A program made the position numbers and the translations under genes. A stretch of DNA of 32,592 nucleotides from NCBI GenBank assembly GCA_003290465.1, contig CP030759.1, forward strand, positions 2,147,980 to 2,180,571, written 5' to 3'. Of this stretch, positions 21,310-32,462 are shown one piece after another. Below the pieces are notes generated by a model. It saw nothing but the letters and a program-made list of their open reading frames with translations, was not told the DNA's origin and did not search any database. Within the stretch, counting starts at the first letter, position 1, and each line of letters starts with the position of its first letter. Source of the DNA: Candidatus Sumerlaea chitinivorans. Its GTDB lineage: Bacteria; Sumerlaeota; Sumerlaeia; Sumerlaeales; Sumerlaeaceae.

Positions 21310-23199
21310 GTGAGCGAGCAGCGACCCGACAAAGCCGATAAAGAGCGCAAAGCCACGCAACCGAAGCGTGGCAAGAAGTTTCAACGTGCGCAAACATTCT
21401 CGGATGAGGGGCAGGAAGCTTTGCGAGTAGCCGCGATGGCAGGGGGGGCGCCAAGCGAAACGAATCCTGTAGATCTCTCATCTCTTGAGTTACCGCCGAA
21501 GGAGGCGGAAGCGCTCTCACACGAGGCGCGCGTTCTCGAAGCGCTCCCGCACCACATTGCTCTCCTTGATTCGACGGGCAGAATCCTCTGGGTGAATCGC
21601 GCGTGGCGCCATTTCGCGATCGCTAACGACCTCCCCAGTGCCACCTACGCCGTCGGTGCAAATTACGTCGAAATCTGCGAACGTGCCACCGGCCCTAACG
21701 CGACCGAAGCCCCGACGGTCGCGCAAGGGTTGCGTGATGTCCTGTCCGGTAAAGTCGACACTTTCTCAATGGAGTACCCGTGTCACTCTCCGACAGAAAA
21801 GCGCTGGTTCCGCGTTCTCATCACGCCGATTGAGGACGGATTGGCGCGAGGTGCAGTCGTTTCGCACATTAACATTACTGAGGAGATGCTTGCCCGACAA
21901 GCCTTGGAGGAGCACGAAGCCCGGCAGCGCCTCGGGCTCGAGGCGGCTCGGGCCGGGATTTGGCGAATTCAACTCGCCGAGGATACCATCGAGTTTGATG
22001 AGACGTGTGCAAAACTTTTGGGGTGGCAACACCCAAGTCGGTGCAGCCCATTCTCCGCCTTCTTACGCCTCGTTTTCCCTCAAGACCGAGACCACGTCCG
22101 TGCCGTTGCACGCTTAGCTCACAGTGCCGTGGATGTGTACGACGCATACTTCCGTGTGCGTTGGCGCGATGGCAGTATCCACTTTATCCATGCACGCGGC
22201 CACGCCTTGGCTTCCACACGCGACGCTGCGCCTACCTACGTTACCGGAATCCTGTTCGACGAGACTGAAAGCCAACGCCGTGCCCGTGAGCACGAAGCTG
22301 TGGTCAAGCTTTCCCGCGCTCTGCGCTCGGCAACCAATTTGGACGAAGCAGGTCGGGTGATTCTCGAAGAAATCGTGCACGCCATGGATGCCGAGGCCGG
22401 TCTTATCGCCCTCCGCGAAGGCGAAGAGGAAAAAATTGTGACGCTGGGTGCCATCGGCCGATGGGAGCCGCTCCAAGGGACGGATGCGACGTGGGAAGAG
22501 GGCATTTTGGGAAGAGTGGCATCCACTCAGACTCCCTATTTCTCGGAATCCGCGTGGGAAGACCCACAATGCCTTCGTCCGGACCTTCTCCGAGGCTTGC
22601 GGGGCTTTATGGCCTTGCCGCTCATTAGCCACCAGGAGCTTACGGGCGTCCTTGCAGTGGGCCGCACGACCCCGTTTGACGCTGAGGATGTCCAGCTGGT
22701 AACGGCTTTAGCAGATCTGGCCTCCAACGCACTCGCACGCATCCGCCATTACCGCGCCCTCGAAGAACGACTGGAGGAGCTGAGGGGTCTCCACGAGATC
22801 GATCTCGCGATCACCCATACCCTTGATCTTGACGAAGTCCTCTCACAGATTCTCGAGCATACGCTGCCGCGTTTGGGGATGGATGCGGGCAGCGTGTATC
22901 TGTTGGAAGGCGACAGCGACATCTTGGTGTGTCGGGCCGCGTTGGGCTTCAAGAGCCTTCACGTCTGGCATGCTCGGCCTTCCGTGGGCTTGGGTCTTGT
23001 GGGAGAAGTTGCCAAACGGCGCGCCCCAATCTTGCTGTCCGGCCACGAGGAACTCCTCAGAAAGTGCCGGCGTAGCGACATGCTCGCGGAAGAAGGCTTT
23101 AGCGCCTATGCGGGGCTTCCTCTGCTTCTTGGTCCCAAACTGATTGGAGTGTTGAACTTTTCTCGCGTCAGCCTCGCCATTTCACGCCCCAGTGGGTGA
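21310..23199 (+). CDS. PAS-PAS-GAF-GAF sensor part of a frameshifted HD-GYP protein
   Basis: 629 residues from a GTG start with GAGGGG six bases upstream. A charged leader (1-70) precedes PAS1 (about 73-190, LLDSTGRILWVNRAWRHF), PAS2 (about 200-322), GAF1 (about 327-480) and GAF2 (about 490-629), joined by helical linkers. No membrane segment is seen, so the signal is probably cytoplasmic or a diffusible molecule. The second GAF domain ends abruptly at LAISRPSG and a TGA, exactly where the frame used by the following HD-GYP sequence continues as FTPQWVSF. One lost base at about 23178-23181 would explain this; restored, the protein would be 852 residues. It may be a real mutation, a sequencing error, or a coupled two-protein arrangement. 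Confidence 0.8.
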   Translation: MSEQRPDKADKERKATQPKRGKKFQRAQTFSDEGQEALRVAAMAGGAPSETNPVDLSSLELPPKEAEALSHEARVLEALPHHIALLDSTGRILWVNRAWRHFAIANDLPSATYAVGANYVEICERATGPNATEAPTVAQGLRDVLSGKVDTFSMEYPCHSPTEKRWFRVLITPIEDGLARGAVVSHINITEEMLARQALEEHEARQRLGLEAARAGIWRIQLAEDTIEFDETCAKLLGWQHPSRCSPFSAFLRLVFPQDRDHVRAVARLAHSAVDVYDAYFRVRWRDGSIHFIHARGHALASTRDAAPTYVTGILFDETESQRRAREHEAVVKLSRALRSATNLDEAGRVILEEIVHAMDAEAGLIALREGEEEKIVTLGAIGRWEPLQGTDATWEEGILGRVASTQTPYFSESAWEDPQCLRPDLLRGLRGFMALPLISHQELTGVLAVGRTTPFDAEDVQLVTALADLASNALARIRHYRALEERLEELRGLHEIDLAITHTLDLDEVLSQILEHTLPRLGMDAGSVYLLEGDSDILVCRAALGFKSLHVWHARPSVGLGLVGEVAKRRAPILLSGHEELLRKCRRSDMLAEEGFSAYAGLPLLLGPKLIGVLNFSRVSLAISRPSG

Positions 23200-23867
23200 G
23201 TTTCGCGATGATGCTAGCCACCCAGACGACGATGGCAATCAATAACTCTCAGCTCCACTCGGAACTGCAGCTCGCGCATGCGGAGTTGATCGCCACCTAC
23301 GATAGCACGATCGAGGGCTGGGCACGAGCCATGGATTACCGCGACAGCGAAACGCTGGGCCACAGCGCGCGCGTCACCGGGATCACGCTCACGCTCATGC
23401 GGGAGTTCGGTGCGACTCCAGATGACCTTGTTATCATTCGGCGCGGCGCGCTTCTCCACGACATCGGGAAGATGGCGATCCCGGATTCGATCCTCCGCAA
23501 GCCGGGCCCACTGACGCCTGAGGAGTGGGAGCTCATGCGCAAACATCCGCTGATCGCCATCGAGCTGCTTCGCCCTATCAAGTTTCTGGAACCCAGTTTG
23601 CCCATTCCTGCCTACCATCACGAGCGTTGGGACGGCACAGGCTATCCGTTCGGGCTAAAAGGCGAGGAGATTCCGTTGCCGGCACGGGTATTTGCGGTTG
23701 TGGACGTGTGGGATGCGCTGATTTCTGACCGCCCCTATCGGCCCGCTTGGCCGCGAGAAAAAGCTCTCGAATATATCGCCGAGCAGGCCGGCAAGCAATT
23801 TGATCCCGAGGCTGTCCGCGTCTTTCTCGACCTCGCTCGAAAAGGCCACATTTTCACAGGAACATAA
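23196..23867 (+). CDS. HD-GYP domain c-di-GMP phosphodiesterase part of the frameshifted gene
   Basis: 223 residues if read from the GTG at 23196, which overlaps the upstream stop (GTGA) but has no SD. The first 35 residues are the end of a GAF domain plus a linker helix. The HD-GYP domain then has HSARVTG, LLHDIGKMAIPDSIL (H88, D89), the KHP motif, HHERWDGTGYP (141-151) and VVDVWDALISDRPYRPAW, so all signature residues for hydrolysis of cyclic di-GMP are present. It should be one protein with the PAS/GAF part. Its stop overlaps the next start as TAATG. Function of the domain is secure; whether it is made as a separate protein is not. Confidence 0.85.
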   Translation: MSFAMMLATQTTMAINNSQLHSELQLAHAELIATYDSTIEGWARAMDYRDSETLGHSARVTGITLTLMREFGATPDDLVIIRRGALLHDIGKMAIPDSILRKPGPLTPEEWELMRKHPLIAIELLRPIKFLEPSLPIPAYHHERWDGTGYPFGLKGEEIPLPARVFAVVDVWDALISDRPYRPAWPREKALEYIAEQAGKQFDPEAVRVFLDLARKGHIFTGT

Positions 23868-24286
23868 TGCAACGTTTACGGGCTCTGGGGCTCACAGCCT
23901 TCAGAAATGCTCTCAGTCGTCACACCAACAGCCCGCCGTTTGGAAGGTTGTCGAAACGAGCGGCGATCGGTACGCCCCTTTCCGAATATCCCTGCTTCCC
24001 CTCGGCTTTTGCACAAGCCCAGCTTCAACGTGTGGCATACCCTCGGCTAATTCTGGGCTTTCCAGAGTTTCAGCGGATACCAAACACACCACTGGGCCGA
24101 CGTGTGCCTCCGTACTCGCCAAGGATGTCGGCTGTGCTTTCCCTCGGAGATCGTGCGGAACAGTTGGCGCCAGCTCTCCGGAAAACCATGTTCTCCGCGG
24201 TTCCCCATCTCGCATCTGGCCAACCGGATTGGGCGCAAAAATCATTGCGTTCTCAGGTCCATTGGCCAAGCATGTGGAATTTATGA
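23867..24286 (+). CDS. Doubtful 139-residue frame linking the HD-GYP and chitinase genes
   Basis: The ATG overlaps the HD-GYP stop (TAATG) and has AGGA five bases upstream; the TGA overlaps the chitinase ATG (ATGA). Such junctions at both ends suggest a translated, coupled gene. Against this, the protein is rich in Arg, Pro, Ser and Leu, shows no motif, and the span 23868-24282 is open in other frames as well. If untranslated, this 415-base stretch is a spacer holding the chitinase promoter, with nothing else I can identify. Confidence 0.3.
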   Translation: MQRLRALGLTAFRNALSRHTNSPPFGRLSKRAAIGTPLSEYPCFPSAFAQAQLQRVAYPRLILGFPEFQRIPNTPLGRRVPPYSPRMSAVLSLGDRAEQLAPALRKTMFSAVPHLASGQPDWAQKSLRSQVHWPSMWNL

Positions 24287-25545
24287 AAGTCCAAGAAATT
24301 GATTTAGCGGGGTCCGGCTCCCGATCTCCTCTGAAACGTCTCTTTCCTCAGCTTTCGTTGTCCGCCTGTCAGTTGCGACGCCCTTGGCAGCTGGTTGTTT
24401 TGGGAGCGTGCTTTGCAACTCTCACTCCGGTGTGCGCCACGACGACGGTTTCCGCGAGCACAGCCCAGCCGCAAACGGATCCGCAATCCGAAAACCGTTC
24501 AACCGCCGGAGGCCGTCCTCCCATTGTCCTCGGCTACTACCCCTCGTGGCCATGTGGACTTGAACCGGCTCAAATCCGCTACGAGAACTTCACTCACCTT
24601 TGCCACGCGTTTGTGACCGCCACCCCTGACGGCAAACTCAAGACCGATGGCAACCTACCAAGCCGCGAACTGACCTCACGGGCGCATGCAGCGGGCGTCA
24701 AAGTACTCCTCAGCGTCGGGGGCGCCGACAGCGGAAAATACATGGGACCCATTGCTACTTCCGAGACGCTCCGCACGCAGTTTGCCCGCGCACTGGTGGG
24801 GATGGTGCGCGAATACGGCTACGACGGCATCGACCTCGATTGGGAGTTCCCGACAAATCCGACGGAAAAGGAGGCCTTCACGCAGCTTGCGCGAGAGCTC
24901 CGTGAGCTGCTCGGTCCGTCGTCGCAGGGGACCAATCTCCTCACGAGTGCTCAAGTCGGTGTGCCGGATGTGGTGCAAAACGTGGATATGCAGGCCCTGC
25001 GTGGAGTTATGGATTGGGTGGCGATCATGACCTACGACATGCATGGTCCATGGAGCAACCATGCGGGCTACAACGCAGCTTTTCGAACCCCCAAAGGCGA
25101 CCGAGAGGGGTGCACCTCGCGTTCACTGGTGGCGCAAATGGCAACGTGGCGCGATGCGGGTGGCTGGCCGCCCGAGCGGCTCCTTGTCGGAATCCCCTGC
25201 TACGGCCGGAGCTTCCCCGTGCGCCGCTGGCACGATCCGATGCCACCAAACACAAAACCCGCCCGCCCCTACCTTGCCTACAAAGACATCCTGCCGCTTC
25301 TCGAGCAAGGCTGGGTGCGCCATTTCGACAACTACGCCATGGTTCCATGGCTGGAGAAGCCGGGAGGAGGAGAGCTTCTCTCCTACGACGACGTCGAGAG
25401 TGTCCAACACAAGACGCGCTGGGCACGCCAAAATGGCTTTGGCGGTGTTTTCTTCTGGGAAATCTCGCAAGACCGGATGGGGGGCCGGAACGTCCTGATC
25501 GAGGCCGCACGCAAGGCGTGGGAAAGCAACTCACGCGAACCCTAA
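24283..25545 (+). CDS. Secreted GH18 chitinase
   Basis: 420 residues. The frame is open much further upstream, but that sequence looks non-coding, so the ATG at 24283 was chosen (GGA five bases before). Two basic stretches precede a hydrophobic core (WQLVVLGACFATLTPVCA, about 35-52), a somewhat long signal peptide. The GH18 barrel (about 80-415) has VLLSVGG (141-147), the catalytic DGIDLDWE (181-188, acid E188), MTYDMHG and a closing FFWEIS with the usual Trp. All residues of the DxxDxDxE motif are present, so chitin or other GlcNAc-polymer hydrolysis is expected, using substrate-assisted catalysis. No carbohydrate-binding domain is visible. It may be translated after the doubtful 139-residue frame and is convergent with the HAD gene. 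Confidence 0.92.
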   Translation: MKVQEIDLAGSGSRSPLKRLFPQLSLSACQLRRPWQLVVLGACFATLTPVCATTTVSASTAQPQTDPQSENRSTAGGRPPIVLGYYPSWPCGLEPAQIRYENFTHLCHAFVTATPDGKLKTDGNLPSRELTSRAHAAGVKVLLSVGGADSGKYMGPIATSETLRTQFARALVGMVREYGYDGIDLDWEFPTNPTEKEAFTQLARELRELLGPSSQGTNLLTSAQVGVPDVVQNVDMQALRGVMDWVAIMTYDMHGPWSNHAGYNAAFRTPKGDREGCTSRSLVAQMATWRDAGGWPPERLLVGIPCYGRSFPVRRWHDPMPPNTKPARPYLAYKDILPLLEQGWVRHFDNYAMVPWLEKPGGGELLSYDDVESVQHKTRWARQNGFGGVFFWEISQDRMGGRNVLIEAARKAWESNSREP

Positions 25546-25588: not shown

Positions 25589-26587
25589 CTACTTTCCTAA
25601 GAGCAGCGGCAGCAAATCCGTGAGTGTTTCGGCATGCGCATTGACGATGCCCGCCAGCCCCGCGCTGCGATAATTCCCACCGGCCACGCCGACCGTATAA
25701 AAGCCAGCGAGCCGGATCGCGACAACCCCAGCGCCGCTATCCTCGATGCCGACGACCCTGTGGGCGCGCTCGCGCGGAATCCCAAGCCCGACCGTCGCCG
25801 TCTCGGCATAGAGCCAAGGATGCGGCTTGGGCTCAAGCTCGCCAAGCGTACCCACTTCCCCTTTTCGCAACGGTGTCCCGGCCGAGATGATGGAATCATA
25901 GAAATCCAACGGATTGCCCAAGTTCATGGTTCGAAATGCCGCCAGAATTTCTGGCCACGCCTTCTCAAAAAGACCGCTGGTCACGAGACCGATTTTCACG
26001 CCGTGGGCTTTGAGCTCGAGAAGGAAATCCTTGAGCCCCGGTGCCGGCTTGAACGCCTCCACATGGCCTCGGCCCTCTTCGATCTCCTTCAATTCACACC
26101 GCGTAAGCTCGAAGTAGACGTCGCGCGCCTGCTCAAGGGTAAATCCGGGGCAGTACTTTTCAATGCAATAGCTCAGGTGCTCGCTGACCGAGTGCCCGGC
26201 CACGTGGGGCAAATCCTCGGGGGTGAATTGGAAACTTTCATCCCCCAGCAGCCGTGCCACCGTGCGCTCAATGATCCACATCCACATTTCCTCGCTGCGC
26301 ACGCTCGTGCCGTCCAGATCCATCAGGACCGCCTCCACCGGCGGTTCAAACGCCACCTCGCGGACGGGATAAATCGCTGGGTAGCCCATCGCGGAACGCA
26401 CATAGGCGAGGGTTTTGTCGGCAAAAACGATGAACTCCACCTTTTGATCTCGCGGGACCAAGATGCACTCGACGCCGTCCCGCCCCACGCGCCATAGTCC
26501 ATCGCCCCCCACCTCGAGTTCCTCAAAATCACCATGGTATTCAGGCGCAATTGCTCCCAATCCGGGGATACGTTCAGGGATCGCCAT
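25589..26587 (-). CDS. HAD-superfamily phosphatase with N-terminal extension
   Basis: 332 residues from the ATG at 26587; a longer frame to 26626 adds 13 residues without support. Residues 1-84 form an extension of unknown function (VECILVPRDQKVEFIVFAD, then a YPAIYPVREV segment). The HAD domain runs from about 85 to the end: motif I DLDGT (D90, D92), a helical cap, motif II VTSG, a Lys near the PKPHP segment, and motif IV GIEDSGAG. This is the beta-phosphoglucomutase/phosphatase-like branch, which usually acts on sugar phosphates or similar small molecules in the cytoplasm. Its substrate is unknown. It is divergent from the GH38 gene over 401 bases, so a link to sugar metabolism is possible but inferred. 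Confidence 0.85.
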   Translation of the reverse strand: MAIPERIPGLGAIAPEYHGDFEELEVGGDGLWRVGRDGVECILVPRDQKVEFIVFADKTLAYVRSAMGYPAIYPVREVAFEPPVEAVLMDLDGTSVRSEEMWMWIIERTVARLLGDESFQFTPEDLPHVAGHSVSEHLSYCIEKYCPGFTLEQARDVYFELTRCELKEIEEGRGHVEAFKPAPGLKDFLLELKAHGVKIGLVTSGLFEKAWPEILAAFRTMNLGNPLDFYDSIISAGTPLRKGEVGTLGELEPKPHPWLYAETATVGLGIPRERAHRVVGIEDSGAGVVAIRLAGFYTVGVAGGNYRSAGLAGIVNAHAETLTDLLPLLLGK

Positions 26588-26988
26588 GCGGTCCAATGAC
26601 CTCCTCAAAGATTCTCGCGGGCACACACGTGCCTAAGCCATCACGCGCGAACAGTTACGAGGTGTGACCCACCGCGCGTGAATTGCGCAAGCGAAACTCA
26701 ACGCGATTGCCACTTGCCAGAAACCCAACGCTCGCGCCCGAACGCCGGCGGTCAAGAAGAGATGTGGGGGAAATTACTGCAATAAATAAAATGTTTTCTT
26801 GCTTGTGCCCACCACGACGTCTGCATTTCTTCATACCAACTCGACAGGCAGCATGCCAGTTGCCTTCGCACAAGCGCGAACTTGGCACACTGCGCGGCGC
26901 TGTGGGAAGCACTCGAAGAAAATCCCAGCGCCATACATAGCTTTGGAGCACGCTGCCGGACGCAATACCAAAGAGAGTGGAGACGACC
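26588..26988. other. 401-bp intergenic region between divergent HAD and GH38 genes
   Basis: It should carry promoters for both genes. An AT-rich segment at about 26775-26800 (AATAAATAAAATG) is the best -10 candidate for the plus strand. Short frames here have no recognisable content. I see no terminator, repeat or RNA gene. Confidence 0.45.
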
Positions 26989-29754
26989 GTGGACCAGACG
27001 CGCAAATGGCACTGTCACATCATTTCGAATACACACTGGGATCGCGAGTGGCGTTATCCCTTCCAAAGCTACCGGATGGACTTGGTGGAAATGATGGACC
27101 GCCTGCTCGATATCCTCGAGCGGCGGCCGGAGTACCGCGCCTTCTACCTCGATAGTCAGACCGTAATTTTGGAGGATTACCTCGAGATTCGACCCGAGAA
27201 TGAGGAACGAATGCGAAAGCTTGTGGCGCAGGACCGACTTCAAATCGGGCCGTGGTACACCCTGCCCGACATGTGGGCCTGCCCGGGCGAAGCCCTCGTG
27301 CGCAACCTCCTCATGGGCCACCGCGTCGCCATGCAGTTTGGGCGGGTCTCCAAGGTCGGCTACACGCCATTCTCCAACGGCCAGATTTCTCAGCTTCCCC
27401 AGCTCTACCGCGGCTTCCGCATTGATTCGTGCATGTTCTATCGCGGCATCGGCAAGCATGTGGCCAAAAGCGAGTTTGTGTGGGAAGGCGCCGACGGTTC
27501 ACGCATCTTTGGATTCCGTTTCGGCGACTATGCCCGCTACAACTACTACTATCTGCTCTATCGGCCGGGACTGCTCGGGCGCACCCCCGCCGACCGAGAA
27601 TACCGCTGGAACCCGGACGAGTTGCCCTACCACGTCGCCGTCACGCAGTCGCAGGATCGCCAATATGGCTACATGAATCTGCGCCTCAGGGTGCACGAAG
27701 AGCTTCTTGATCAAGCGCTGGCCGACGCTCTGCGCTTCACAGCAGCCGATGCCACGACATCCCAGCTCCTCTACATGATGGGACACGACCATTCCTACGC
27801 CGCCGAAGAAGAACTCGACCTCATCGAGGCTCTGCAACGCCGCGTGGCCGGCTCCAACCAAGAGATTTTCCATTCCTCTCTCGCTGAGTACATGGAAGCC
27901 TTCCGCAAGGAAGCACGCGACCTTCAGGTGGTCCGGGGGGAAATGCGCCATACGCTGAAGGAAGGGCTGTGGACAACCCTCATGGCGCTCATTTTGTCGT
28001 CGCGTACCTACCTCAAGCAACAAAATGCGCGCATCTGTACACACGTCCTTGCTGGTGCCGAACCGTTAGCCGCTATGGCGTGGCTTACGGGATCACCCTA
28101 TCCCACGCCGTTCTTTACCCAGATCTGGCGTCGCCTGCTCGTCAACCAAGCCCACGACGCGATCGGGGGCTGCAGTGTGGACCGAGTCCACACCGAAATG
28201 CAGGCACGTTGGGGAGAGGTGGAGACCATCAGCGATGAGATCATCCGCCGCTCGATGCGTGACGTAGCAGCCCGGATTGACGGACGCAGTTCGATCTCCA
28301 CGAACGATCTGCAGCTCACGGTTTTCAATCCCACGCCCTATCCGTGGAGCGGGCTGGCTGAGGTGATTATCGACCTCCCGCATGCCACGCCCGAGACCCC
28401 ATTCGCGCTCGAGCGCGCGGGCGGCGCGCCTGTCCCAATCCAAATCGTGGCTCAAGAACCCTACACGGCAACCATCGAGAGTGGCTACGAGCTCACGATG
28501 ACCTTCCCGGTGCAACGCTATCGCGCGCGCATCGAGCTGGAGAATCTCCCGGCCTTCGGCTACGAAGCACTGGCCGTACGCGTTGGCGCGGCTCCCGAGA
28601 AGCCTGCAGAGCTCCCCAAGCTCGCCCGCAGCGAGCGCGAACTGGAAAACGATTTCCTCGCAGCACGTTTTGAGGCCGATGGCACCTTCTCGATGCGCGA
28701 CAAAGCTACAGGCCGCGTCTTCGAGGGACTGGGCTTCCTCGAGGACTCTGCGGAGTTCGGTGACCCGTGGAACCGCGTGGTCCCACCGGGGGATAAGCCG
28801 ATCCTTTCCCGACGCAGCGCTCGCCCGACGTTCCGGATTGTCGAAAACGGCCCACTCTACGCTGCAATTGAGGCCACCTACGAGTTCTCCATCCCCGAGG
28901 GGAAAGGACCCGACGGCAAACGCAGCCGCAAACGCACGAGGCTTCCGATCTCGCTCACGCTTTCGTTGGAGCGCGGGGCGCGTGCGTTAGGCGTAACGCT
29001 ACGCCTTACGAACACCGCGGAGAACCATCGCCTGCGGGTGATGTTCCCGACAGGCCTCAGCCGCGCGACGCATTCGATTGCGGACGGGCAGTTCGACGTC
29101 CTCGAGCGCCCGATCCAGCTCCCTGACGCCACGGGTTGGAAGGAACCCCCGTACCCGACCCACCCCATGTGGAGCTTCGTGGATGTGTTCGATGGCGAAG
29201 CGGGACTGGCGGTGCTCAACGATGGTCTGACCGAATATGAGGTCGTGGATGAGCCCGCCCGCACGATCGCCATCACGCTCTTGCGGGCCTTTGGGACGTT
29301 TGTGTTCGGTCGCCCAACCCCCGGCGCCCAATGCAAAGGCACGCACGTTTATCGCTTCGCCTTACTCCCGCACCAGCGCCCATGGCACGAAGCTCGAGTT
29401 TTCGATGAGGTGCGGCGCCTCACCATTCCGCTTCAGGCGCTGCTCTCGGCTCCGACGGCTGGTTCCTTGCCTCGAAGTGCCTCCTTCATTCATCTCACCA
29501 ATCCACAGCTCGTGTTCAGTGCCGCGAAACCAGCGGAAAGTGGCGATAAACTGGTGATCCGTTTCTGGAACCCCACTGCCGAAACCCAAACCACATGCAT
29601 TGAGTTCGGACTCCCACTGAAACGCGCTCAACTTCTCTCGCTCGAGGAAATTCCGGAAGGAGATTTGGAGCTTCAGGACGGAGGCCGGCGCGTGGAGTTG
29701 TCGGCGGGACCGAAAAAGATTGTGACGGTGGGCATCGAGTGGATACTGGATTGA
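26989..29754 (+). CDS. GH38 alpha-mannosidase-like protein with altered nucleophile position
   Basis: 921 residues from the GTG at 26989, which has GGAG six bases upstream; a GTG at 26977 is possible. The GH38 catalytic part (about 5-300) opens with SNTHWDREW (H16, D18 as zinc ligands), and the middle domain has [16 protein letters not shown] (H389, the third His/Asp-type ligand). The normally invariant nucleophile Asp in LPDxFG is not there: the sequence is [16 protein letters not shown], with Phe128 at that place. Beta-rich C-terminal domains (about 480-921) are as in other family members. The rest of the fold looks intact, and the length is normal. It has no signal peptide, so it is probably cytoplasmic. 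It may be a variant with another nucleophile, a lectin-like protein, or an inactive enzyme. Confidence 0.88.
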
Positions 29755-30038: not shown

Positions 30039-30488
30039 TTACTCGTTTGCAAGCAGGGTCCGAATCTGCTCGCAGATCTCGTCCACGGTCACGGCAACCT
30101 GTGGACTCAGCCCTTCCGCGTGACCAAACACTGCCCCGCCGACAGAAATCAACCACGCCCGTGGCGCTTTCCCGTAAAGCTCACAACTCATCTGCAGTAA
30201 CCCGTACGGCGTGACGCGATGCGTGAAGCTCTCACTCGAATTGGAAGGGGCAATCTCAAGCGACTCGCACCGCACTTCCCCCGGCGCGAGGGTTGCGCTT
30301 GCATCCACGAATACGACCGTATCGGCCGTACTCAAGTCCTCAGCAAGCTCAGGCACCAGTTGAAAGAGTGCTCGGACTTCGGTGGAAGCGTCCGCATAGG
30401 AAGCAGCAAACCGCTGCGCCACGACTTGGCCTACGGCGTCGTCGCCGCGCAGCGGATTGCCATAACCGATGACCAACGTTTTCGGCAT
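30039..30488 (-). CDS. hoxW: [NiFe] hydrogenase maturation endopeptidase
   Basis: 149 residues from the ATG at 30488, which overlaps the hoxH stop as TGATG, so the two are translationally coupled. The N-terminus LVIGYGNPLRGDDAVG is the family signature with the conserved Asp pair used to sense nickel, followed by VVFVDAS. The middle His region FTHRVTPYGLL matches the second metal-binding area. These M52-type proteases clip the C-terminal tail of the large subunit after nickel insertion, which locks the active site. Its target is almost surely the HoxH upstream. The symbol is by context; hyaD/hycI-type naming would suit equally well. Confidence 0.9.
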   Translation of the reverse strand: MPKTLVIGYGNPLRGDDAVGQVVAQRFAASYADASTEVRALFQLVPELAEDLSTADTVVFVDASATLAPGEVRCESLEIAPSNSSESFTHRVTPYGLLQMSCELYGKAPRAWLISVGGAVFGHAEGLSPQVAVTVDEICEQIRTLLANE

Positions 30489-31912
30489 CAGTCGCGAGTC
30501 GCAACGTCGAGTACCTGACCGGTCGGCCCGACAAGCTCCACCCGCAATGGCATCTGCCCGACTGCATGCGTGGAGCAGCTCAAGCACGGGTCGTAGCAGC
30601 GGATCACCGCCTCCACACGGTTGAGCATTCCCTCTTCGATCTTGTCGCCACGCACGAAATGCTTGGCCGCCTGCAGGACCCCGCGGTTCATCGCCAAGTT
30701 ATTGTGGCCGGTTGCGATGATAAGGTTCGCCCACGTCACCAGCCCATTCTCATCAATGCGGTAATGGTGTAGGAGCATGCCCCGGGGGGCCTCGCTCACG
30801 CCCACGCCTTCAAACGCGTTCGCCCCAGCGTGTGCGCGCACGTGCGGGCTCAAGATGTCCGGATCGCGCAGCGTGCGCTCCATCTGTTCGAGCGCCGCGA
30901 TAATCTCAATCAGGCGCGCATAGTGATAATGGAACGAGCTCAGGACCACGCGGCGGTCCAACTCGCGGAACTCCGCCCACTCTTCGTCAGCGCGCGGCGT
31001 GTTGCACCGATCCGCAATGTTGAGCCGCGCCAGCGGCCCCACGCGGTAGATCCCCTCGGGGTAGCCGAGCGGTTTGTAGTACGGCGACTTGAGATAACTA
31101 TAGGGTTCCACCGCTTCGCCGATGAAGTCCTGATAATTTGCGATCTCAAGCTGATCCGCAATCACGTTGCCGGCACTGTCCACCACGCGAACCTTGCCAT
31201 GCGTGAAGGCCAAGTAACCGTCCTCATCCACCAGACCCATGAAGAGCGTGGGGAAGTTGGCAAAGGTTGCGATTTCCTCGCGGAACTGTTTGTACGTCTT
31301 CTTGTACCACTCGAGTGTGCGCGTGGCGATCTCCATCGCTTGCGGAATTTCGGCGAGGATCTCGTCGCGCGTTGCAGCATCCAGCGGATCACTCACGCCG
31401 CCCGGCACGACCCACGCGGGGTGAATCCGCTTGCCGGCAAGCCGCTCAATAACGCGCTGCCCGAACTTGCGCAGCGCGATTCCGTCGCGCGCGATCTGTG
31501 GATGCGATTCTGCCAGCGCGAATAGGTGGCGCTTCGCTGGATCCGCGTCCATGCCCAGCAGAAAATCCGGTGAGGAGAGATGGAAGAAGCTCAGGGCGTG
31601 GGACTGCACAATTTGCCCAAGGTTAAGTACGTGGCGCAACATTCGACCGGTGCGTGGCACCTGTACCGCCAGAAGAGCGTCGCAGGCTTTTGCCGAGGCG
31701 ATCAAGTGGCTCACCGGGCAGATGCCGCAGGTGCGCGCCATCAACGACGGCATTTCTGCGAACGGACGCCCCTCGCAGAGCTTCTCGAAACCTCGGTACT
31801 GCGTGACATGGAACTGGGCATCCTGCACGATGCCCTCATCGTTCAAGTAAATCGTGATCTTCGCATGTCCTTCAATGCGGGTCACGGGATCAATGGTGAT
31901 TTGTTTTGCCAT
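30488..31912 (-). CDS. hoxH: [NiFe] hydrogenase large subunit (group 3, HoxH-like)
   Basis: 474 residues. The ATG at 31912 has AGGAGA six bases upstream and gives the usual start KQITIDPVTRIEGHAK. The four nickel-iron cysteines are present: C62 and C65 in RTCGICPVSH, C443 and C446 in DPCLSCSTH. A 25-residue tail follows H449 and should be removed by the protease encoded next. The RIEGH and DPCLSCSTH forms and the small partner fit cytoplasmic group 3 bidirectional enzymes, linked to NAD(P)H, rather than membrane uptake types. It binds H2 or protons at the Ni-Fe site in complex with HoxY. It lies ten bases after hoxY and overlaps the protease start, so the operon is tight. Exact subgroup (3b, 3c or 3d) is uncertain. 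Confidence 0.93.
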   Translation of the reverse strand: MAKQITIDPVTRIEGHAKITIYLNDEGIVQDAQFHVTQYRGFEKLCEGRPFAEMPSLMARTCGICPVSHLIASAKACDALLAVQVPRTGRMLRHVLNLGQIVQSHALSFFHLSSPDFLLGMDADPAKRHLFALAESHPQIARDGIALRKFGQRVIERLAGKRIHPAWVVPGGVSDPLDAATRDEILAEIPQAMEIATRTLEWYKKTYKQFREEIATFANFPTLFMGLVDEDGYLAFTHGKVRVVDSAGNVIADQLEIANYQDFIGEAVEPYSYLKSPYYKPLGYPEGIYRVGPLARLNIADRCNTPRADEEWAEFRELDRRVVLSSFHYHYARLIEIIAALEQMERTLRDPDILSPHVRAHAGANAFEGVGVSEAPRGMLLHHYRIDENGLVTWANLIIATGHNNLAMNRGVLQAAKHFVRGDKIEEGMLNRVEAVIRCYDPCLSCSTHAVGQMPLRVELVGPTGQVLDVATRD

Positions 31913-31922
31913 GATGATTCTC

Positions 31923-32462
31923 CTATGCTCCGAACCGAGTCTTGTCGCTGATGTCAGGGATTCTCCCCTCGAGAAGCTCGCTGACGACGTAGAAAATGGT
32001 GTCCGCAGAGGGTGGACAGCCGGGCACGTGGACATCCACTTTCACGAACTCGTGCACGGGACGCGCCTTCGGCAGCAACTTGGGAATGACACTCGTCGGC
32101 ACTTGCTGATTGAGCGTTGCATTTTCGAGGTAAGCGCGGCTGAGAACGTCCTTCAGCGGGAAAGGATTGCGCATGCCCGGCACGTTTGAGGTCACGGCGC
32201 AATCTCCCAGAGCCACGAGAATGCGCGTGTGCTCACGGATCTTGCGGATCTTGGCCAAATCGTCCTCGCTGCTGACGGCGCCCTCGACAATGGTCACGTC
32301 CACCATCTCGGGGAATTCCTTCATATCGACAAGCGGACTGTAGACGAGCTCGGCCCTCTCCGCCACGGCCAACAGACGTTCGTCCAGATCCAGAAACGAC
32401 ATGTGGCAGCCCGAGCAGCCGTCCAGCCACACCGTTGCGATTTTTGCCTTGTTGTTGCTCAT
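31923..32462 (-). CDS. hoxY: [NiFe] hydrogenase small subunit (HoxY-like)
   Basis: 179 residues, the short form typical of HoxY, which holds only the proximal [4Fe-4S] cluster. Its ligands are C16 and C19 in DGCSGCHMSF, C88 in GDCAVTSN and C149 in VPGCPPSAD. There is no twin-arginine signal and no C-terminal ferredoxin part, so the complex stays in the cytoplasm. The cluster carries electrons between the Ni-Fe site in HoxH and the diaphorase side (HoxU and partners). A very strong SD (GGAGGAA) precedes the ATG, and the start overlaps the hoxU stop as ATGA. Confidence in family is high; the same fold also occurs in F420- or heterodisulfide-linked enzymes. Confidence 0.92.
   Translation of the reverse strand: MSNNKAKIATVWLDGCSGCHMSFLDLDERLLAVAERAELVYSPLVDMKEFPEMVDVTIVEGAVSSEDDLAKIRKIREHTRILVALGDCAVTSNVPGMRNPFPLKDVLSRAYLENATLNQQVPTSVIPKLLPKARPVHEFVKVDVHVPGCPPSADTIFYVVSELLEGRIPDISDKTRFGA

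Follow-up and report, generated by a model that had tools for sequence, protein, structure and literature searches.

The window analysed here is a 32,592-nucleotide stretch of the Candidatus Sumerlaea chitinivorans genome, which is assembled as a single contig of 3.29 Mb (CP030759.1). The gene of interest, P0001, is located on the forward strand at positions 26977..29754, begins with a GTG start codon and encodes a 925 amino acid protein whose close relatives are all found in 'Candidatus Sumerlaeota'. The protein is a full-length member of glycoside hydrolase family 38 (GH38), with PF01074, PF09261, PF07748 and PF17677 all scoring above their Pfam cut-offs. An AlphaFold2 model (pLDDT 84.4, pTM 0.88) matches solved GH38 structures along its length, the best PDB matches being 3lvt (Z 39.4), 5kbp (38.3) and 2wyi (37.7). 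The best NCBIfam match is the mannosylglycerate hydrolase MngB (NF007331) at 498.4 bits, which is far under the equivalog cut-off of 1138. The N-terminus lacks a signal-like segment, and thus the protein is predicted to be cytoplasmic. Divergent from P0001, on the reverse strand at 25589..26626, is the HAD-family gene P0002, whose 345 amino acid product carries an N-terminal extension.

Several other genes in the window can be assigned. A GH18 chitinase ORF is located at 23800-25545 on the forward strand, where the listed TTG start adds some 200 unlikely residues and the true start is probably downstream. The forward-strand region 21310-23867 encodes a GAF/PAS sensor protein followed by an HD-GYP-like protein with overlapping ends, which is likely a signalling pair. 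On the reverse strand, positions 30488-32035 encode a NiFe hydrogenase large subunit that is nearest to the F420-non-reducing hydrogenase VhuA (402 bits, under the cut-off of 800) and whose C-terminal part also matches VhuU. A small-subunit-like ORF is found upstream of it at 31923-32462 on the same strand.

In the GH38 enzyme of S. pyogenes (SpGH38), zinc is held by H13, D15, D125 and H351, with D125 also serving as the nucleophile and D232 as the acid/base (PMC2815779). The corresponding motif of P0001 (residues 127-142; 27355..27402, forward strand) aligns without a gap against LGYFPDTFGNMGQTPQ in the solved GH38s. The codon at the position of the nucleophile and fourth zinc ligand (27370..27372, forward strand; D125 in SpGH38, D204 in dGMII) is TTC, which encodes Phe132. 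The initial annotation had reported a phenylalanine here as Phe128; its residue numbers run 4 below those used here, as it takes the second GTG for the start codon, and the gap-free alignment shows the substitution to be real. It had also stated that the other zinc-site residues (its H16, D18 and H389) are kept. These are H20 and D22, encoded within the H20-W-D22 segment at 27034..27042 (SpGH38 H13/D15), and His393, which is followed by the sugar-hydroxyl contact Asp394 (28153..28158; SpGH38 D352). The general acid/base, Asp271, is encoded at 27787..27789 (SpGH38 D232, dGMII D341). All of these codons are on the forward strand, and each of the residues is present in 72 of 72 sequences of the wider clade described below.

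P0001 therefore resembles the bacterial GH38 alpha-mannosidases (SpGH38, 2wyh/2wyi; the E. faecalis enzyme, 5kbp/3lvt) and MngB in its four-domain architecture, its whole-length fold, its H-D-H zinc ligands, its acid/base and its sugar-contact Asp. It differs from them in having no nucleophile Asp, in carrying Arg at the position equivalent to Tyr192 of SpGH38, and in the longer loop that follows this Arg. Thus, the protein belongs to GH38 by domain set, fold and zinc ligands. Compared with the retaining alpha-mannosidases of the family, it possesses the acid/base but has Phe132 in place of the nucleophile.

A replacement Asp elsewhere near the site, which the initial annotation had named as a finding that would undo its reading, was looked for, and none was found. 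D184, in the segment GDYARY, varies even between close paralogues. At position 206, in the loop, D or E is present in only 82% of sequences, and the remainder carry Q, S, F or other residues. All columns of the catalytic domain were scanned, and no clade-specific acid was found. An assembly error or a pseudogene is ruled out by conservation across independent genomes and by low pN/pS.

The motif GYTPFSNGQ is found in 12 of 12 intact Sumerlaeota orthologues, which share 55-71% identity with P0001. One further orthologue (G002; L015/L033) is split into two frames after the motif, owing either to an error in sequencing or to decay of this one copy. More distant paralogues (34-44% identity) also lack the Asp and carry F, C, T, A or S at the site. 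An alignment of Asp-less N-terminal halves, together with searches in related phyla, recovered members outside Sumerlaeota in which the motif reads, for example, GYSPFSWGQ or GYTPTSYGQ. The nucleophile Asp is absent from all 72 sequences of this wider clade, whereas H20, D22, D271, H393 and D394 are invariant, and such recurrence is much more than chance would produce. The clade spans at least five phylum-level groups, namely Sumerlaeota and four represented by G083, G117, G167/G242 and G221. It is present in only 4 of 202 sampled genomes of other phyla and in 20 of 82 genomes of the phylum of G083, and a single genome can carry as many as about seven copies. A scan of viral contigs with the Asp-less alignment yielded no viral relatives, and the matches in phage collections were records of about 29% identity.

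In trees computed without the columns of the trait itself, and with an uncertain root, the Asp-less and canonical bacterial GH38 sequences are separated by one branch with a support of only 65. When distant eukaryote-type GH38 sequences are added, the Asp-less label requires two changes on the tree. The Asp may have been lost once or several times, or it may have been lost and then regained. The initial annotation had raised the question of whether TPFxxGQ defines a clade. In alignment and tree, TPFSNGQ marks a Sumerlaeota clade that is nested within the broader Asp-less group.

Nonsynonymous change is suppressed in these genes, with dN/dS values of 0.035-0.30 and, where synonymous sites are saturated, pN/pS values of 0.16-0.27. 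The clade is under purifying selection by these sequence measures and appears to be functional rather than decayed or purely structural, because the full acid and metal set would not otherwise be expected to persist. The initial annotation's statement that the protein is full length with no decay agrees with this, and all four GH38 Pfam domains are present. These data also bear on whether the protein could be a pseudoenzyme, or a sugar-binding or regulatory protein. Loss of the nucleophile is what such a protein might display, and the entries 3cv5 and 3czn describe dGMII with its nucleophile changed to Ala as a means of trapping substrates. However, all 72 sequences retain the acid/base, the three zinc ligands and D394, purifying selection is strong, there are several paralogues per genome, and the genes reside in operons with catabolic enzymes. 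We regard this as very improbable and as the least likely of the explanations considered. The binding protein that the initial annotation had offered as one reading is likewise disfavoured: no sequence of the clade departs from the acid/base or from the three zinc ligands, and the pN/pS or dN/dS values are low (0.04-0.30).

The loss of the Asp is accompanied by the gain of basic residues. Arg187 (27535..27537, forward strand) aligns with Y192 of SpGH38, and this position is R or K in 72 of 72 clade members. In a full-length alignment, the position is R or K in 37 of 37 Asp-less sequences versus Tyr in 26 of 26 canonical ones, and the same split is seen in 92 separately classified genes, with the exception of one frameshifted gene. 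Two further basic positions stand out in a scan of all columns that compares the clade with canonical bacterial GH38: Arg196 (27562..27564, forward strand; 69 of 72) and Arg181 (27517..27519, forward strand). The frequencies of R or K in clade and canonical sequences are 100% and 4% at position 187, 96% and 4% at 196, and 92% and 17% at 181. Arg196 lies inside a clade-specific loop of about residues 190-241 (27544..27700, forward strand), which also includes the conserved W211 (69 of 72), whereas canonical bacterial GH38 proteins have a short loop at this location. The loop holding R187 and R196 has a pLDDT of about 50 in the AlphaFold2 model, and the geometry of these two residues is taken from alignment to published structures.

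In SpGH38, the Tyr at this position, Y192, hydrogen-bonds the nucleophile D125 (PMC2815779). Because the equivalent of Y192 contacts the nucleophile and switches with the loss of the Asp, the aligned sequences indicate a joint change of two touching residues, in which the Asp is lost and Tyr becomes Arg or Lys. The initial annotation had raised the possibility of a coherent subfamily that works by a different mechanism, and this is supported by the clade (with a branch support of 65) and by the coupled change. There is no clade-specific acid, and there are three clade-specific basic positions, which suggests that an anion probably occupies the former nucleophile site.

One possibility is that this anion is part of the substrate. 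Perhaps the enzyme is a hydrolase, or possibly a lyase, of an acidic sugar (uronic, sulfated or phosphorylated), wherein the Arg residues bind the charge of the substrate, and a zinc-bound water or a substrate group replaces the Asp. R187, R196 and R181 would suit any anion; in SpGH38 the nucleophile, R149 and the sugar O6 are close together (PMC2815779), and sulfatase genes are among the nearest neighbours of three clade members. However, this explanation does not by itself account for the loss of the nucleophile, there is no gained general base, and the link to the HAD family described below is left unexplained. We consider it unlikely. Another possibility is an inverting hydrolase in which a zinc-bound hydroxide takes the place of the Asp and attacks C1. 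The zinc ligands and the acid are indeed kept, and inverting and retaining members are described as coexisting in families such as GH97 (PMC2670981). This scheme is improbable, as no new general base has appeared and the invariant basic residue at position 187 would have no role.

The reading that we favour, at about an even chance, is that the anion is inorganic phosphate and that the Asp-less clade comprises inverting, zinc-dependent alpha-manno-glycoside phosphorylases. Inverting phosphorylases keep one catalytic acid, and phosphate stands in for the second catalytic residue (PMC8950772). As judged from its sequence, P0001 likewise has a single catalytic acid and neither a base nor a nucleophile of its own. 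R187, R196 and R181, which are conserved in the clade, are candidates for a phosphate-binding basic cluster at the nucleophile site, the loop with R187 and R196 being modelled at low confidence. The proposal mirrors the phosphorylase/hydrolase switch of GH130, where three basic phosphate-binding residues versus carboxylates distinguish phosphorylases from hydrolases (PMC4599007). By analogy, the Asp-less GH38 proteins would represent such an exchange in reverse, wherein a carboxylate and a Tyr are removed and Arg is gained, while the acid and zinc are kept. The GH130 mannoside phosphorylases and mannosidases differ from Asp-less GH38 in having an unrelated five-bladed propeller fold, in acting on beta-mannosides and in yielding alpha-Man-1-P.

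In the proposed phosphorylase mechanism, zinc would grip O2 and O3 of a sugar of alpha-manno configuration that occupies subsite -1. The gap left on the beta face by the missing Asp would accommodate inorganic phosphate, with R187, R196, probably R156 and R181, and zinc as its binding partners. D271 would protonate the leaving group and phosphate would attack C1 in one step to yield a beta-sugar 1-phosphate, which the adjoining HAD enzyme would then isomerise or dephosphorylate. Subclades, distinguished by the residue at the nucleophile site (F, T, A, S or C), would use different sugars and aglycones. The list of substrate candidates includes an alpha-mannoside, a mannosylglycerate-like compound, an N-acetylmannosaminide and a manno-heptoside.

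A beta-sugar 1-phosphate would require its own mutase, like the beta-phosphoglucomutase that follows GH65. The nearest named families to P0002 are PGMB/YQAB-type beta-phosphoglucomutases, with weak similarity (E about 1e-5 to 1e-7) and scores below the cut-offs of TIGR01990 (27.5 versus 189.4 bits) and TIGR02009 (30.6 versus 153.35). The family of P0002 shares the HAD core motifs DxDGT, T/S, K and ED with beta-phosphoglucomutase-type proteins (4gib, 4g9b), and differs from them in an extra N-terminal region of about 90 amino acids and in the cap motif PHxxG[HN]S. The GH65 inverting alpha-glucoside phosphorylases, which have an (alpha/alpha)6 fold unrelated to that of GH38, act on gluco substrates and contain no zinc. 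The logic that the two systems would share is the conversion of an alpha-glycoside and phosphate to a beta-sugar 1-phosphate and then the action of a HAD mutase, as in GH65 trehalose phosphorolysis, where a HAD beta-phosphoglucomutase acts next (PMC4336185).

The association of this HAD family with the clade is not restricted to the window. It adjoins Asp-less GH38 genes in G001, G007, G021, G032 and G034, and a longer version does so in three other phyla with differing gene orders (L127, L169, L191); profile comparison joins the short and long versions (hhalign 99%). For the clade, 12 of 113 nearest neighbours have the HAD motif; the figures are 0 of 58 among canonical GH38 genes and 7 of 659 in the background, which consists of other genes of the same stretches. 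Kinship of the genomes inflates these counts. PF00702 is the commonest neighbour family of the clade (11 of 101) and is absent from the top list for canonical genes. Outside Sumerlaeota, the HAD family is found in exactly the four sampled genomes that carry the clade (Fisher p about 1.5e-8, 201 genomes). In the phylum of G083, half of the clade-bearing genomes have it (10 of 20), versus 2 of 62 of the others (p 4e-6). Within Sumerlaeota, co-occurrence is not significant (17 of 20 versus 12 of 20, p 0.16), and the nearest neighbour is not a HAD gene at 46 of 58 Asp-less loci. We propose from these genomic associations that the HAD family is a dedicated partner that acts on a sugar 1-phosphate. 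Weighing against the phosphorylase interpretation are the weak resemblance of this family to beta-phosphoglucomutase, its possible action as a phosphatase instead, and the frequent occurrence of HAD enzymes in general.

Other gene contexts of the clade suggest a common thread of sugar phosphates and, in places, beta-manno 1-phosphates. The operon at L127 encodes NanE, a phosphoglucosamine/phosphomannomutase-type mutase, the HAD protein, Asp-less GH38, a GH94-family protein and GHL10, and at L165 a GH94 gene and a NanE-ROK kinase fusion adjoin the Asp-less gene. A beta-manno-heptose-1-phosphate adenylyltransferase is found with Asp-less GH38 in the operons at L182 and L186. PfkB kinase genes adjoin some clade members (L192, L194, L197); these would fit equally well with a hydrolase that releases free sugar.

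The occurrences of NanE, a ManNAc-6-P epimerase, raise the question of whether the enzyme is a retaining alpha-N-acetylmannosaminidase. The 2-acetamido group of such a substrate, which is axial at C2 and trans to the alpha leaving group, would act as the nucleophile and make the enzyme Asp dispensable. Substrate assistance of this type explains the missing nucleophile in GH18, GH20 and GH84. However, NanE is near only two loci, no clade-specific Asp or Glu was found that could hold an oxazoline, zinc normally binds O2, and the Arg residues would be unexplained, which makes this explanation quite improbable. A 3-keto elimination with a GFO/IDH/MocA oxidoreductase was also considered and rejected, as that family accounts for only 2 of 101 nearest neighbours.

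For the Asp-less clade, the label 'alpha-mannosidase, GH38', which is in wide use, is probably incorrect. Neither a GH38 member nor an alpha-mannoside phosphorylase is named in a 2022 review of glycoside phosphorylases (PMC8950772), and no report of a GH38 phosphorylase or of a nucleophile-less GH38 was found in the open-access literature. The broader claim, to which we assign slightly less than an even chance, is that the clade is a new phosphorylase lineage, the first on alpha-manno glycosides, in which a retaining zinc glycosidase became an inverting phosphorylase by trading its nucleophile and the Tyr that contacts it for a site that binds phosphate, and a dedicated, uncharacterised HAD family processes the beta-manno-type 1-phosphates. 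If the clade does consist of phosphorylases, it would fill a gap among the known glycoside phosphorylases, supply reversible enzymes for making alpha-mannosides and provide a natural case of the change from retaining glycosidase to inverting phosphorylase.

A few additional gene arrangements recur near GH38 genes. In two genomes of the phylum of G083, a tandem pair of Asp-less GH38 genes flanks a gene of about 400 codons (L166, 5378-12252, reverse strand; L175, 5689-12563, forward strand). The product of this gene has almost no Pfam match, and a homologue at L190 is weakly similar to deoxyhypusine synthase (E 8e-4). At L178 (7963-13986, forward strand), an Asp-less GH38 gene is followed directly by an Asp-keeping, eukaryote-like GH38 gene of 1050 codons, and the pair possibly performs two steps on one glycan. 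DUF4185 genes are repeatedly found by Asp-less GH38 genes of the TPTSYGQ type, both in the phylum of G083 (L167, L171-L174) and in Sumerlaeota (L193, L198), and one is located beside a canonical GH38 gene in Sumerlaeota (L203). At L193 and L198, a uroporphyrinogen-decarboxylase-like gene is located directly upstream of the GH38 gene.
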